A stretch of DNA of 42,591 bases from a virus. The stretch lies in the IMG/VR virus record IMGVR_UViG_3300048996_000262, positions 1 to 42,591 of that record; one strand, written 5' to 3'. A program made the position numbers and the translations under genes. Below, piece after piece: positions 192-6,567 of the stretch (within the stretch, counting starts at the first letter, position 1; each line of letters begins with the position of its first letter). Below the pieces are notes generated by a model that saw only the letters and a list, made by a program, of their open reading frames with translations, had not been told where the DNA came from and made no database searches.

Positions 192-1250
192 TCATTTGAT
201 CGCCTTTTGACGCGCGCCTATTTCCAGCTTCAAAATAGCCGCCTCACCCAACCGATGCTGGCTCACCCGCTTGGCGTAATGTTCGATCATTTGGAACGAC
301 TGCCCAGTGATCGCGGCGACCTCATGCGGCGTACATCCCGCCTCAAGCAGCGAGTTTACCGCGTTCTTGCGCAGGCCATGCGGGACGATCTCAAAACCAA
401 GATCCTCGGCAAACTCCTGAAGCTCGAAACGCATCCGGCCAAGGAACTTAGGCTTGCCGTATTTGCCGGTCAGAATGGTCATGCCAAGGCGCGGGGTACG
501 GTCTAGCTCGGCTTCCAGAGCGCTATGCAATGGGATGCGCAGAACCTTCTTGAAGCGGATGGTCTTTTGCGGCGTGACGATGATTGCGCCGTCCCTGATG
601 TCGCTCCAACGCATTTTCATGACGTCGCCTATGCGCTGCCCGGTGTAGTAGAGCAGATGCACGGCAAGGCGCACCATGTCCTTGTCGCAGGCGAGCGCTG
701 CCTCAAGCAGTTCATCCGGCCAAGGCTCATGCTCACCCTTGGGGAATTTCTTGATACCGTCGGTCGGGTTGGCGTCGGTCAGATCGTTCTCACGGCCATA
801 GCGGTAGATCACGGATACGACGGCCAGGAACAGGTTGCGCGATCCGTTGCCGGTGATGCGGTTGTTCACCACCTCGCGGACGTGGCGGCGCTCCACCTTG
901 TCAATCGTCAGTGCCCCTAATTCCTCGCGGACACGCTTAAGGCCGAACCAATAGGCGCGCTGTGTCGCCTCGGTGCGCTTGCGGTAGTCATCGCTGCGCT
1001 CGTATTGATCGATCAGGGCATTGACCGTGGAGGGTGCGGAACCCCGCTTCGTCCTGTTGCCAAGCATGGCGGCATAGCTGTCATAGAAGCCCACGCTGCC
1101 AAACGGCGGGAGCGGCGCATAGACCGGCTTGCCGTTCAGCTTCGCGCCCGTGTTGAAATAGGCGTAAAGCTTCCCCTTGGCGCGGGTGAACTTGACGTGC
1201 TTTAGGCTAGGCTGCTTTGCCACGGTTCCAGAATTCCCTTTCGGCATCAT
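192..1250 (-). CDS. int: tyrosine-recombinase integrase
   Basis: Site-specific recombinase that would integrate and, with the neighbouring excisionase-like protein, excise the phage genome. From the ATG at 1250 it is 352 aa. The C-terminal catalytic domain shows Arg206 (TGQRIGD), a candidate Lys229, the box HGLR (His291, Arg294) and the nucleophile Tyr325 (EHYAKR). The usual second His is Gln (ITGQ). The N-terminal part has the expected arm-binding and core-binding regions. A TTG at 1268 and a GTG near 1217 are other possible starts; ATG 1250 has a weak GGTGAG upstream. It overlaps the excisionase-like gene by 44 bases and is last in a long early operon. No tRNA-like attachment site was seen; the 44-bp gap at 148-191 is one candidate place for attP. 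Confidence 0.93.
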   Translation of the reverse strand: MMPKGNSGTVAKQPSLKHVKFTRAKGKLYAYFNTGAKLNGKPVYAPLPPFGSVGFYDSYAAMLGNRTKRGSAPSTVNALIDQYERSDDYRKRTEATQRAYWFGLKRVREELGALTIDKVERRHVREVVNNRITGNGSRNLFLAVVSVIYRYGRENDLTDANPTDGIKKFPKGEHEPWPDELLEAALACDKDMVRLAVHLLYYTGQRIGDVMKMRWSDIRDGAIIVTPQKTIRFKKVLRIPLHSALEAELDRTPRLGMTILTGKYGKPKFLGRMRFELQEFAEDLGFEIVPHGLRKNAVNSLLEAGCTPHEVAAITGQSFQMIEHYAKRVSQHRLGEAAILKLEIGARQKAIK

Positions 1251-1443
1251 CTTCACGCTCACCGGCAAGCATCGCCAGAGCCTTGTCTAGTGCGCCCTTG
1301 TGCCAATGCTCACGGCCACCGAACATCACGCTCGGCGGCAGGCGCCCGGCTGCGACTTCCCGCAGGAACGCGGCTTCGGACATATCGCAATATTCAGCAG
1401 AGGTTCGCTGCTTCATCATCGCCGGCCATCGTAGCGCGCTCAT
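1207..1443 (-). CDS. AlpA/MerR-like excisionase candidate
   Basis: 78 aa. Residues about 13-60 form a small winged helix-turn-helix typical of phage excisionases and AlpA-type regulators: TSAEYCDMSEAAFLREVAAG, then a wing around RLPPSVMFGG and a helix with WHKGALDKAL. Such proteins bend attachment-site DNA and set the direction of integrase. The ATG directly abuts the stop of the acyl-carrier-like gene upstream, and its 3' end overlaps int by 44 bases, so the two are probably translated together. The function is inferred from fold and position. Confidence 0.75.
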   Translation of the reverse strand: MSALRWPAMMKQRTSAEYCDMSEAAFLREVAAGRLPPSVMFGGREHWHKGALDKALAMLAGEREDDAEREFWNRGKAA

Positions 1444-1674
1444 CTATGCGGCCTCCCTTGCAAGACCCTGGACGGACTTTGTGATGCACGCAGGTGTCGT
1501 CCAGCTTGTGATGTCCGCGTCGGGAATCTCGATGAGGAACGCTTCCTCAAGGTCGCAAGCCAGCCCCATCAGGTCCAGCAGGTCAGCGCCTAAGTCCTCG
1601 TCCAGCAACGCTCCTGATGCAATGCTATCCGGTGTAATGCCAAGGGTATTGGCTATGATGGTGAGGATGGTCAT
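1444..1674 (-). CDS. acyl carrier protein-like, attachment serine missing
   Basis: 76 aa with the size, acidity and helix pattern of an acyl carrier protein (ACP). The core at residues 27-34 is DLGADLLD and is followed by LEEAFLIEIPD (42-52), matching the canonical DLGADSLD and LEEEF-EIPDE blocks of bacterial ACP. The serine that normally carries 4'-phosphopantetheine is Leu32 here; the codons read GAC CTG CTG GAC. The protein therefore should not carry acyl groups but could still bind ACP partners. It starts at an ATG sharing ATGA with the upstream stop and ends immediately before the excisionase-like gene. Fold assignment is from motif recognition; the role is unknown. Confidence 0.75.
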   Translation of the reverse strand: MTILTIIANTLGITPDSIASGALLDEDLGADLLDLMGLACDLEEAFLIEIPDADITSWTTPACITKSVQGLAREAA

Positions 1675-1934
1675 GGCGCTTTCCATTCGCCACATACATC
1701 GGTCTTGAATTTGTCGATTGGGGTGGGGAAGCGGCGGCAACTGATAAGTTCGCAATGATGTCTCGCCCGTGTGGCGTGGAGGCTTGCCGCCCAATAGTAA
1801 TCACTCCAGATGTCATCAGCTGGGTCTGTCCATAGGAGGCGGAGGAGCCGGTTCTTGGGCGGATCCGGCTTTTTCGGTGCCGGGCCCGCCTCAGGGAGCA
1901 ACTTGGCCCACACGCATGTCTTGCAGGCGTTCAT
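1671..1934 (-). CDS. Cys-rich small protein (CxxC-W, CRRFP, CGEW)
   Basis: 87 aa. It begins NACKTCVWAK and ends with SCRRFPTPI and DVCGEWK, a spacing of paired Cys and Trp that suggests one small zinc site. A shorter protein at 6564-6740 has the same plan (CANCRHW, CRV, CPAWE), so the phage carries two members of this type. Start chosen at ATG 1934, which shares ATGA with the upstream stop; the 3' end shares ATGA with the ACP-like gene. Its function is unknown to me. Confidence 0.65.
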   Translation of the reverse strand: MNACKTCVWAKLLPEAGPAPKKPDPPKNRLLRLLWTDPADDIWSDYYWAASLHATRARHHCELISCRRFPTPIDKFKTDVCGEWKAP

Positions 1935-2104
1935 GCTCCACCTCGCAGCCATGACAGCAGCCCACGCTTGGTCGGCGCTGTTTCCCCGTTCCGCTTCATC
2001 CGTAGGTATTCCAGACACCATGCGTCGTGACGGTCTATGCCCTTGACGCGGCAGTTGCCGGGGTCACTTGGCCGGGCGTTTGTGTGAATGGTGGCTGAGG
2101 TCAC
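1931..2104 (-). CDS. hypothetical 57-aa protein
   Basis: A GTG at 2104 shares GTGA with the stop of the Lar-like gene, and the stop shares ATGA with the next gene. The frame is open further upstream to an ATG at 2137, but the coupled GTG fits the pattern of this operon. The middle contains HDAWCLEYLRMKRNG. No family recognised. Confidence 0.55.
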   Translation of the reverse strand: MTSATIHTNARPSDPGNCRVKGIDRHDAWCLEYLRMKRNGETAPTKRGLLSWLRGGA

Positions 2105-2292
2105 AGCGGTTCTCCGGGCGCTTGTCGTGTGTTCCATGCGCGGATGACTGCGATTTCCGCACTGCCGGAGGGGCCATGGTACTTATGCACTCGCGCGCCG
2201 CATTTGGTGCAAGCGACAGACTTCCCATCACGAAGGTGGAGGTTCGCTTTCGCAGAACCCCCACAAAATGGGCAGGGTTTCAGTTCACTCAT
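2101..2292 (-). CDS. Lar-like zinc-ribbon protein
   Basis: 63 aa. LKPCPFCGG (Cys7, Cys10) and ACTKCG (Cys28, Cys31) form a four-Cys zinc ribbon, followed by AVIRAWNTR near the C terminus. This is the pattern of the restriction-alleviation Lar family, common in phage early regions. Some Lar proteins modulate type I restriction, but most family members are untested, so that role is inference. Start at ATG 2292 with AGGGAG upstream; that ribosome site is in the 49-bp repeat at 2290-2338. Confidence 0.8.
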   Translation of the reverse strand: MSELKPCPFCGGSAKANLHLRDGKSVACTKCGARVHKYHGPSGSAEIAVIRAWNTRQAPGEPL

Positions 2293-2338
2293 CTCAACTC
2301 TCCCTAATATGTGTACAGAGGCTGTTGGGCTGGTCATG
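2290..2338 (-). repeat. 49-bp direct repeat, copy 1
   Basis: Near-perfect copy (one mismatch by eye) of 3099-3147. On the minus strand it runs from a CATGACC to the ATG of the next gene. It includes TGTACACA (TGTATACA in copy 2) and the AGGGAG ribosome site. It sits at the 5' end of the Lar-like gene. Confidence 0.9.
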
Positions 2339-5096: not shown

Positions 5097-5724
5097 TTAC
5101 TGCTTCCTTCATGTACCGGGCGCGCAGGGTGGCGACCGTCTCATCCACTTCAGCGAGGAACTTGCTGACCTCGCTTTCAATCTCAGTTGTTAGTTCAGGG
5201 TCACGTTGGACGCGCTCGACGTGAAGCTGCATCTCCAGCGGCAAGCGCGGATCGAAGCTCACGAAGTCACACCACAGGCGTTCGGTGCACATCATCTGGA
5301 AATGCACCTGCAGGACGTACTTGCGGTCGATGTTCGCGCCGGTCAGCGTGGCGATGTGTGTCGCGCTATTTGGGCACTTAATCTCCAGGCACCCGTCATC
5401 ACCGATAAGCCCGTCTGGGGACGCACCAGCCCATGCGATGGATGGATGGGCAATGAAGCCCGTTTCCATCACGCCAACGCCCTGTGTAAACTCATAGGCG
5501 GCTCTGGCCTGTGCCTCGGTCTCGACACCCCAAGCCATCGCGGCATTGCTGTAGCTTTCCGCCACAGTGCCCGTCAGGCGCTCGGTGACAAGTTGGGCGT
5601 GATAGTTCGCCCGGTCAGCCCCATAGCCTGACTTGGTGCGCGCCATGATCTTATAGATGGCGCTGGCGGTTGCCTTGCCGCAGCGGTCGGCGAACCACGT
5701 TTCTGTGCGCTGGAGGTCAACCAT
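5089..5724 (-). CDS. YqaJ/lambda-Exo-like exonuclease
   Basis: 211 aa. Member of the YqaJ viral recombinase family (PD-(D/E)XK fold), which degrades one DNA strand for annealing. It shows the N-terminal R-x-x-W-x-x-R-x-GK-x-TAS pattern (Arg6 to Ser21), AWGVETEAQARAAYE (64-78), the catalytic Asp104 in SPDG, Glu114-x-Lys116 in CLEIKCP, and Gln139-x-His-x-Gln143. It overlaps the ERF gene by 8 bases and the SSB-like gene by 8 bases. Together these form an exonuclease, annealase and SSB recombination module. Confidence 0.9.
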   Translation of the reverse strand: MVDLQRTETWFADRCGKATASAIYKIMARTKSGYGADRANYHAQLVTERLTGTVAESYSNAAMAWGVETEAQARAAYEFTQGVGVMETGFIAHPSIAWAGASPDGLIGDDGCLEIKCPNSATHIATLTGANIDRKYVLQVHFQMMCTERLWCDFVSFDPRLPLEMQLHVERVQRDPELTTEIESEVSKFLAEVDETVATLRARYMKEAVNV

Positions 5725-6397
5725 TGGCTGGCTCCATCGCCTTGGCGTCGGCTTCTGCCTTGACCGCCTTTGCCAGCTTCTCGTTGAGCATGTTCAGCGC
5801 GTGGCCGTATTGGTCCTGCGAAAGCTTGCGCAGATCCGGCACCTTGTAGAACTTGAGCATTGCGCCCGTGTCCGACTTGGTGGCTTCGATAAGCTGCACC
5901 AGCTTGGCCCACTCGCTGTCTGGCATGTCCGATGATGCCACTTCATGCGTCACCGCGTCGGGGTCGTTGTCGCCCTCGGTTGGGATAGCGAAGGCCATAA
6001 GCGCGGCGTATTTGTAGGCTGCGCTCATCGCCTTGTTGGTAGCCTTGTCGGCGCTATCCATCGCCTCGCCATAGGTGCGGACGGTATGGACACTCGCGTC
6101 CTCGGCGGCGACGAAATCGAATTCCGCCTCCACCACGACATAGAACAGCGGTGAACCCTTGGCGGTTCTACGCTCCACCAGGTCACGCGACAGGATGCGT
6201 GGCAGGATCGAAAGCCCATGCTTTGCCAGCAACGGGGCCAAGGTGTTGTACACCTCGTCGATGCCCCGGAACTTGTAGCCCTGCTGCTGATTGTTGCGCG
6301 ACTTGCTGATGCCGCTCTGAGCCAGTTCGGCCTGCACGGCGGCGATCTTGGAATACACTACAGGTGGTCCTGCAGTCACTTTGGTTTGAGCGTTCAT
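5717..6397 (-). CDS. erf: ERF-family single-strand annealing protein
   Basis: 226 aa from ATG 6397. The ERF block YKFRGIDEVYNTLAPLLAKH (41-60) is followed by a beta-rich region with DSADKATNKAMSAAYKYA and FAIPTEGD. ERF proteins form rings on single-stranded DNA and anneal homologous strands. It works with the adjacent YqaJ exonuclease. It shares ATGA with the upstream membrane-protein gene. An upstream extension to 6463 exists but the coupled ATG is preferred. Confidence 0.92.
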   Translation of the reverse strand: MNAQTKVTAGPPVVYSKIAAVQAELAQSGISKSRNNQQQGYKFRGIDEVYNTLAPLLAKHGLSILPRILSRDLVERRTAKGSPLFYVVVEAEFDFVAAEDASVHTVRTYGEAMDSADKATNKAMSAAYKYAALMAFAIPTEGDNDPDAVTHEVASSDMPDSEWAKLVQLIEATKSDTGAMLKFYKVPDLRKLSQDQYGHALNMLNEKLAKAVKAEADAKAMEPANG

Positions 6398-6567
6398 GAC
6401 AGCAATACCGATCCAAAGAGGGAAACAACGCACACCGCTATGACAAGCAGCGTGCCGAGCCACATGGGGGGCTCTCCGATGGGGCGTTCGAAAGCGCGCG
6501 AACCTTCGCGGATGGTTTCGCCCTCGGCGTCGAAGCGCTCCTGTAGGCGGGCGAGTTCGTGGGTCAC
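6394..6567 (-). CDS. small membrane protein, 57 aa
   Basis: A GTG at 6567 shares GTGA with the previous gene. The N-terminal 35 residues are charged and helical (HELARLQERFDAEGETIREG). The C terminus is one membrane segment (MWLGTLLVIAVCVVSLFGSV). The topology suggests a short coiled region in the cytoplasm anchored by its tail. Function unknown. Confidence 0.65.
   Translation of the reverse strand: MTHELARLQERFDAEGETIREGSRAFERPIGEPPMWLGTLLVIAVCVVSLFGSVLLS

Follow-up and report, generated by a model that had tools for sequence, protein, structure and literature searches.

An ACP-like phage protein without the phosphopantetheine serine and its putative role as an adaptor

INTRODUCTION

Acyl carrier proteins (ACPs) encoded by phages have been counted among auxiliary metabolic genes (PMC8224337), and their role has been called unclear (PMC5463345); these statements, like all those cited below, come from excerpts of the papers in question. 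The bacterial protein is described as a hub with many partners (PMC3340395). SpoT and MukB are contacted via residues 42-44 of ACP helix II, with V43E abolishing both interactions; A45D is part of a triple mutant lost for SpoT binding, and the interaction with SpoT is reported, in the excerpt, in beta- and gamma-proteobacteria only (PMC3340395). The ATPase of MukB is stimulated equally by apo- and holo-AcpP (PMC8602292), and binding of IscS is abolished by ACP S36T (PMC13343975).

Phage ACP-like proteins are already known; the form described here lacks a Ser at the phosphopantetheine site and has Trp where Escherichia coli ACP has Ile62. In excerpts of open-licence PMC text on phage ACPs, Ser loss and the host we found no description of this ACP-like family, which is a weak negative result.

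RESULTS

The ACP-like gene of the window

The window, i.e. the whole stretch of DNA that was analysed, is an entire virus record of 42,591 bases. It encodes an ACP-like protein without the phosphopantetheine Ser (P0001; coordinates of all features are given in Table 1). An earlier note had read an ACP core at this position, giving no strand; the core is there, on the minus strand, and the plus-strand frame of the same stretch is interrupted by stops. The protein matches the Pfam family PF00550 (PP-binding; E 3.8e-8) with 33.9 bits, above the family cut-off of 20.8, and the entire record has no other match to this family. The top PHROG match was phrog_5934, ‘acyl carrier protein’ (E 6e-7), followed by phrog_14581 (4e-5); the best sequence match to a solved ACP had E 8e-8, the others being weaker. 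A pattern made from the window protein and its relatives is expected to have zero matches in shuffled windows; as it was drawn partly from the window protein, this figure shows specificity and is not independent evidence. The protein has a net charge of -11 and pI of 4.05, and all 25 proteins that we tabulated were acidic.

Table 1. Coordinates of the ACP-like gene, its critical codons and neighbouring genes in the window
Feature	Coordinates	Strand	Evidence or remark
Tyrosine integrase gene (int)	192..1268	-	profile matches; relatives in Novosphingobium
Excisionase-like gene (xis), 78 aa	1207..1443	-	phrog_25900 transcriptional regulator (weak); kept beside int in relatives
ACP-like gene (P0001), 76 aa + stop	1444..1674	-	ATG 1674-1672, TAG 1446-1444; residues 1674..1447
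Codon 58, TGG (Trp), at Ile62 position of E. coli ACP	1501..1503	-	alignment; hallmark of relatives
Codon 32, CTG (Leu), at phosphopantetheine Ser site (Ser36 of E. coli ACP)	1579..1581	-	alignment and sequence; read 1581-1579
116-aa ORF, stop overlapping the ACP-like start (ATGA)	1671..2021	-	Pfam: no match at E 0.01
Lar-type restriction alleviation protein, same leftward block	2101..2337	-	PF14354, 51 bits
ERF recombinase, same leftward block	5717..6463	-	PF04404, 77.5 bits

The leftward block also includes an HNH-like ORF below the Pfam cut-off. The TAG of the ACP-like gene abuts the ATG of xis directly (TAG/ATG), and the integrase gene comes next. The proposed coupling to the excisionase and integrase genes was thus borne out, by this junction as well as by the ATGA overlap upstream. 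Judging from the relatives of int and xis, the host would be a sphingomonad.

Replacement of the Ser, likewise claimed in the earlier note, was confirmed: the acceptor of 4′-phosphopantetheine is missing and CTG-coded Leu32 stands in its place, as the opening residue of predicted helix II in the motif DLGAD-L-LD. A sequencing error as source of the Leu was rejected; the nearest Ser codon, TCG, differs from CTG at two positions, so that a single base error is ruled out. Displacement of the Ser by a few residues was rejected as well, residues 21 to 56 holding no Ser.

The acidic face of helices II and III is kept in the window protein (equivalents of Asp35, Asp38, Glu47 and Asp56). Those helix II residues of host ACP that are read by partners, at positions 41, 43, 44 and 45, are altered to Gly, Ala, Cys and Asp, respectively; this makes a mimic of host ACP less likely and leaves an adaptor unaffected. 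At position 62 ordinary carriers have mostly Ile or Leu. All residues by which we define here a Trp62 group (Trp62, Ala43, Asp35 and Asp56) are present in the window protein, its placement in the tree being not firm.

Predicted fold

The AlphaFold2 model of the window protein (41 aligned sequences) had a mean pLDDT of 95.2, with helices predicted at residues 3-11, 32-46, 52-57 and 61-75; the predicted fold is the four-helix fold of ACP, with the acceptor position at the N-terminus of helix II. Because the AlphaFold input contained ACP homologues, such a fold was to be expected from the alignment. All of the best 50 Foldseek rows were, by title, ACPs or complexes holding an ACP (top E 1.6e-5). 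VIA-align superimposed the model on ACP AntF with Z 14.0 (rmsd 1.2, 75 residues) and on E. coli butyryl-ACP I62M with Z 12.8 (rmsd 1.6, 73 residues), the range over the best 50 ACP rows being 11 to 14; since the program warns that helical bundles can commonly give Z values below ~13, we give more weight to sequence evidence than to the fold score. An ACP fold was also predicted for a relative of 16% identity in which Asp occupies the Ser site, from an alignment without ordinary AcpP rows. Comparison of a predicted structure with ACP, the check suggested in the earlier note, therefore yielded an ACP fold and not one unlike ACP.

Relatives of the ACP-like gene

At E 1, a search of 50,697 phage records found no close homologue of the window protein, and none was found in IMG/VR either. 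Relatives of the integrase, on the other hand, are present in IMG/VR at ~50% identity and in two Novosphingobium genomes. In five virus records with such integrases no PF00550 match was seen (0/5); in the Novosphingobium locus L054 an ACP-like ORF with Gln at the Ser site lies ~1 kb upstream of xis. When 195 genomes of the Novosphingobium genus were searched with a profile of xis, 12 sites were detected, distributed over 11 genomes. All 12 regions were examined, some of them shortened by contig ends, and five had an ACP-like ORF, with Ser (L228), Gln (L054), Asp (L226, L227) or Ala (L234) at the site. The final xis scan of IMG/VR gave 15 loci, five of them with an ACP-like ORF (Ser, Asp, Gln, Asp, Gln); among the IMG/VR loci, L314 and L325 repeat the proteins of L228 and L054, and L322 is the contig of L285. 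Reversed ORFs, serving as control, produced 0 matches.

A profile of five ACP-like sequences matched 183 of the 195 genomes, mostly at host AcpP. A local ACP profile accepted 28 of its best 30 loci; of these, 20 were ordinary AcpP, in each case with Ser, and the other 8 were divergent proteins. The remaining two, L236 and L237, were below the threshold of the local profile and are, by position, the genes of L226 and L234. The new divergent members had Ala (L239, L240, L249), Ser (L246) or Gln (L241, L252). Altogether, ten members were obtained by profile or synteny with no selection for Trp (L228, L054, L226, L234, L239, L246, L241, L240, L252 and L249, truncated L227 being left out); nine of them have Trp62 and two have Ser. 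A profile of alignment A2 matched 386 of 397 family genomes, was swamped by host AcpP and contributed none of the members treated here. A Trp pattern matched once in 385 genomes of the class, which we read as chance; the pattern is so strict, recovering just 5 of 11 known members, that absence from the class does not follow.

IMG/VR DNA was scanned with a pattern in which the Ser site was left free, D-x-[L-like]-x4-[L-like]-A-x2-[L-like]-[DE]-x8-D-x5-W-x-[ST-like]. The local ACP profile accepted 14 of the 21 stretches found, the other 7 being unrelated frames; the accepted ones carried Gly (2, identical proteins), Ala (3), Val (1), Glu (2), Thr (1), Gln (2) or Ser (3). Over the window protein and its relatives the site is thus occupied by S, L, Q, D, A, G, E, T or V. 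The pattern DLGAD-Leu-Leu-Asp matched 46 stretches, among which tblastn with the window protein gave nothing convincing (E > 0.1). Members of alignment A6 matched phrog_5934 in 33 cases and phrog_14581 in 22 cases out of 41.

Divergent ACP-like genes are found, then, in related Novosphingobium prophages and in IMG/VR phages, in many cases with the same xis-int pair located downstream. The neighbours of the ACP-like genes differ among phages, so no fixed partner gene is indicated.

Some loci have peculiar arrangements. In L227 (7439-7918; G461, Novosphingobium genus group) the ACP-like protein is truncated, has Asp at the site and is fused in frame to the excisionase, probably by deletion of genes that lie between the two in the sister locus L226. 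A Ser-less ACP-like ORF of L239/L265 (L265:6131-6334, minus strand), located beside an integrase-like frame, has an in-frame TAA just past its likely start and is perhaps a pseudogene. The same protein of 176-187 aa follows the ACP-like gene in L228 (6913-7443, before xis) and in L234; its gene is a possible candidate for a partner gene.

Loss of the Ser and presence of Trp62

The ordinary phage ACP pattern DLGAD-x-L-x4-L-x3-L-E-[DE] with Ser-like codons at the site matched at least 120 stretches; all 80 among the matches listed have Ser. With codons starting with C or G it matched two stretches, one being an ACP (L092, Ala); of codons starting with A or T the pattern covered [AT][CG]N.

Among the 24 rows with Trp in a 75-row alignment, 6 have Ser, versus 49 of 51 others. 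When the rows are clustered at 60% identity, 13 of 19 clusters with Trp lack the Ser, versus 2 of 35 others (Fisher p 2e-6, to be taken as a guide because the rows were collected by pattern and are related). Conversely, none of 74 distinct Ser-bearing ACPs has Trp at ungapped position 62. The equivalent of Asp35 is kept in 23 of the 24 Trp rows, although the IMG/VR pattern accounts for part of the conservation of Asp35, Ala43, Glu47, Asp56 and Trp62. Since some Trp members retain Ser, a fraction of the family may still act as carriers.

The earlier note had asked whether relatives in other phages share the Leu, and had reasoned that homologues all with Ser would suggest a simple mutation. Relatives lack the Ser too, and in the sequences compared its loss is not a lone mutation of the window protein; the Leu itself is not conserved, the window protein being its sole bearer among the 24 Trp rows.

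A quick tree was made from 77 kept columns, the two trait columns being named for exclusion; most of its forks are open or weak, few branches are starred and many are long. On this poorly resolved tree the Ser state requires at least six changes, Trp three, and the Trp group plus L270 two; we do not, therefore, claim a Trp62 clade. The rows nearest to the window protein, with no starred set, are ordinary ACPs and the Ala-bearing L092, so the window protein may have lost its Ser independently.

Comparison of coding sequences indicates that several Ser-less relatives are under purifying selection, as measured on the relatives and not on the window copy. The dN/dS ratio was 0.10 for L274/L278 (Glu/Glu); 0.07 (Ala/Ala), 0.18 and 0.20 within L272/L284/L283 (Ala or Val); 0.25 to 0.45 within L285/L267/L287 (Gln); 0.36 for L054/L265; and 0.76 for L226/L227, where L227 is truncated and fused. 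Pairs of the Asp group, with 4 changes each, were uninformative. The residue at the site is constant in close groups (Glu 2/2, Gln 3/3, Asp 4/4), and the Ala group has one Val.

ACP-like proteins of named phages

Among 21 ACP-like proteins from named phages 13 had Ser and 8 did not: Glu was present in PS5, Marshall, phiD3, Zahir, KpS110 and phiMAM1, Asp in GG32 and Lu11. All of these phages except Lu11 are Ackermannviridae; the proteins of this family (L296, L308-L312, L300) had Glu or Asp in 7 out of 7 examined, and most are annotated as acyl carrier protein. Relatives of the PS5 type exist in 270 phage records, six of which were examined at the Ser site. By their sequences, Ser-less phage ‘ACPs’ are not confined to the window phage, and annotators call them carriers. 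Phage Sajous1 has a coding stretch 100% identical to that of PS5; gp186 of Sajous1 was seen by mass spectrometry (excerpt of PMC10892097) and, from the shared name, would be the product of this stretch.

Two Pseudomonas phages show other arrangements. Lu11 gp353 (L298:137-559), annotated as a hypothetical protein, resembles ACP in its C-terminal part, where Asp occupies the Ser site; HRDY3 (L306) has two adjacent overlapping ACP genes, both with Ser.

DISCUSSION

We consider the odds somewhat in favour of the window protein being an arm-less adaptor of ACP fold, with a putative partner, and not a carrier. Absence of the Ser in related phages too makes an adaptor, rather than a carrier, probable. 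A temperate phage would express the non-carrier protein from the leftward block that also contains xis and int. The predicted scaffold of four helices and the acidic face of helices II and III are kept and the phosphopantetheine acceptor is gone, which would leave the protein permanently apo-like. It would then bind one partner protein through the helix II/III face, with no carrying or sensing of acyl chains. Action of ACP free of its arm has a precedent in apo-AcpP acting on MukB. As to the partner, we lean weakly toward one in DNA transactions, of phage or host, over a fatty-acid enzyme, because ERF, Lar, xis and int are nearby and methyltransferase-like genes stand beside several relatives.

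The earlier note had proposed a non-carrying decoy or adaptor and named SpoT, MukB and IscS as possible targets. An adaptor fits the arm-less ACP fold; mimicry of host ACP fits poorly, given the changed residues of helix II, and the named targets found no support. IscS is disfavoured because its binding needs Ser36; for SpoT and MukB the changes in helix II count, and so does, for SpoT, the taxonomic range of the reported interaction. Among 8 genomes of the related host genus no credible MukB (PF04310) was detected; one genome had a match, rejected since its frame reads as an ABC-transporter ATPase.

A decoy in the strict sense, occupying and diverting an enzyme that binds host ACP (a fatty-acid enzyme, an Rsh of SpoT type, IscS or an SMC protein), seems unlikely to us. 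In its favour, the window protein retains the ACP fold and acidic helix II; ACP has many partners, and the apo form suffices for MukB. However, the partner-read positions are changed in a helix where V43E alone kills SpoT and MukB binding, IscS and MukB meet the objections just given, and the relatives, far from tracking host AcpP, have drifted away from it as well as from one another. Still lower we place an acidic DNA mimic or anti-restriction protein built on the ACP scaffold and blocking a DNA-binding enzyme. The charge and pI of the window protein and the acidity of all tabulated proteins agree with it, as may the Lar gene in the same block and, by our reading, the methyltransferase-like genes flanking L054, L226, L228, L272, L279 and L283; however, ordinary ACPs are also very acidic, with pI ~4 (excerpt of PMC3340395), so that the charge is uninformative.

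The tight coupling to xis at the TAG/ATG junction would be explained by a cofactor of Xis or Int that controls the directionality of recombination; in L285/L322 xis and the ACP-like ORF overlap, in L265 and L287 an integrase-like ORF is close to the ACP-like one, and in L227 the ACP-like part is fused in frame to xis. Yet the same xis-int pair mostly occurs without an ACP-like ORF, in the genus regions as in the IMG/VR loci, and several members are not next to xis; we regard this role as improbable. Least probable of all is a functionless former carrier in decay. One could cite for it the missing Ser, the in-frame stop near the likely start of the L239/L265 ORF, the truncation and fusion of L227, and the dN/dS of 0.76 for L226/L227; against it, the window ORF is intact and tightly joined to its neighbours at both start and stop, purifying selection acts on other Ser-less pairs, the site residue is kept within close groups, and the predicted fold has a confidence of 95. 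Taken together, the adaptor reading is the one that we retain.

One could speculate further that the ACP fold has repeatedly been made into a dedicated non-carrier adaptor: in temperate phages of alphaproteobacteria (the Trp62 group) and, separately, in the Glu/Asp ‘ACP’ of Ackermannviridae. We hold this with slightly less than even confidence; if true, many phage ‘acyl carrier proteins’ counted as auxiliary metabolic genes would be unrelated to lipid metabolism. Natural Ser-less versions, some of them under purifying selection, imply that part at least of the phage ACP group cannot carry acyl chains. The question of what these proteins do is narrowed to the protein that is bound, and natural versions with and without Ser offer test material. 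A PF00550 match in a phage should not be equated with lipid metabolism unless the Ser has been checked.

Compared with known systems, the window protein resembles bacterial AcpP (PF00550) in profile, four-helix fold, DLGAD loop, acidic helix II and a turn of the Asp56 type, and differs from it in the absence of Ser36, in Trp at Ile62 and in Gly, Ala, Cys and Asp at 41, 43, 44 and 45. E. coli AcpP acting on MukBEF is like the proposed adaptor in that it acts without the arm; unlike the window protein it also carries, and the 8 genomes of the related host genus gave no credible MukB. The best PHROG matches, phrog_5934 and phrog_14581, are phage families; the name ‘carrier’ of phrog_5934 is no proof that its studied members carry. 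Sinorhizobium phage HMSP1-Susan gp73 is, like the window protein, a Trp-bearing ACP-like protein, encoded near an annotated attR, but it retains the Ser. The Ackermannviridae ‘ACP’ (Kuttervirus, Limestonevirus, Taipeivirus, Miltonvirus) shares with the window protein its phage origin, ACP likeness and loss of the Ser; in contrast, it belongs to large phages, has mostly a longer N-terminus and, by our reading, no Trp62, and is not closely related in sequence.
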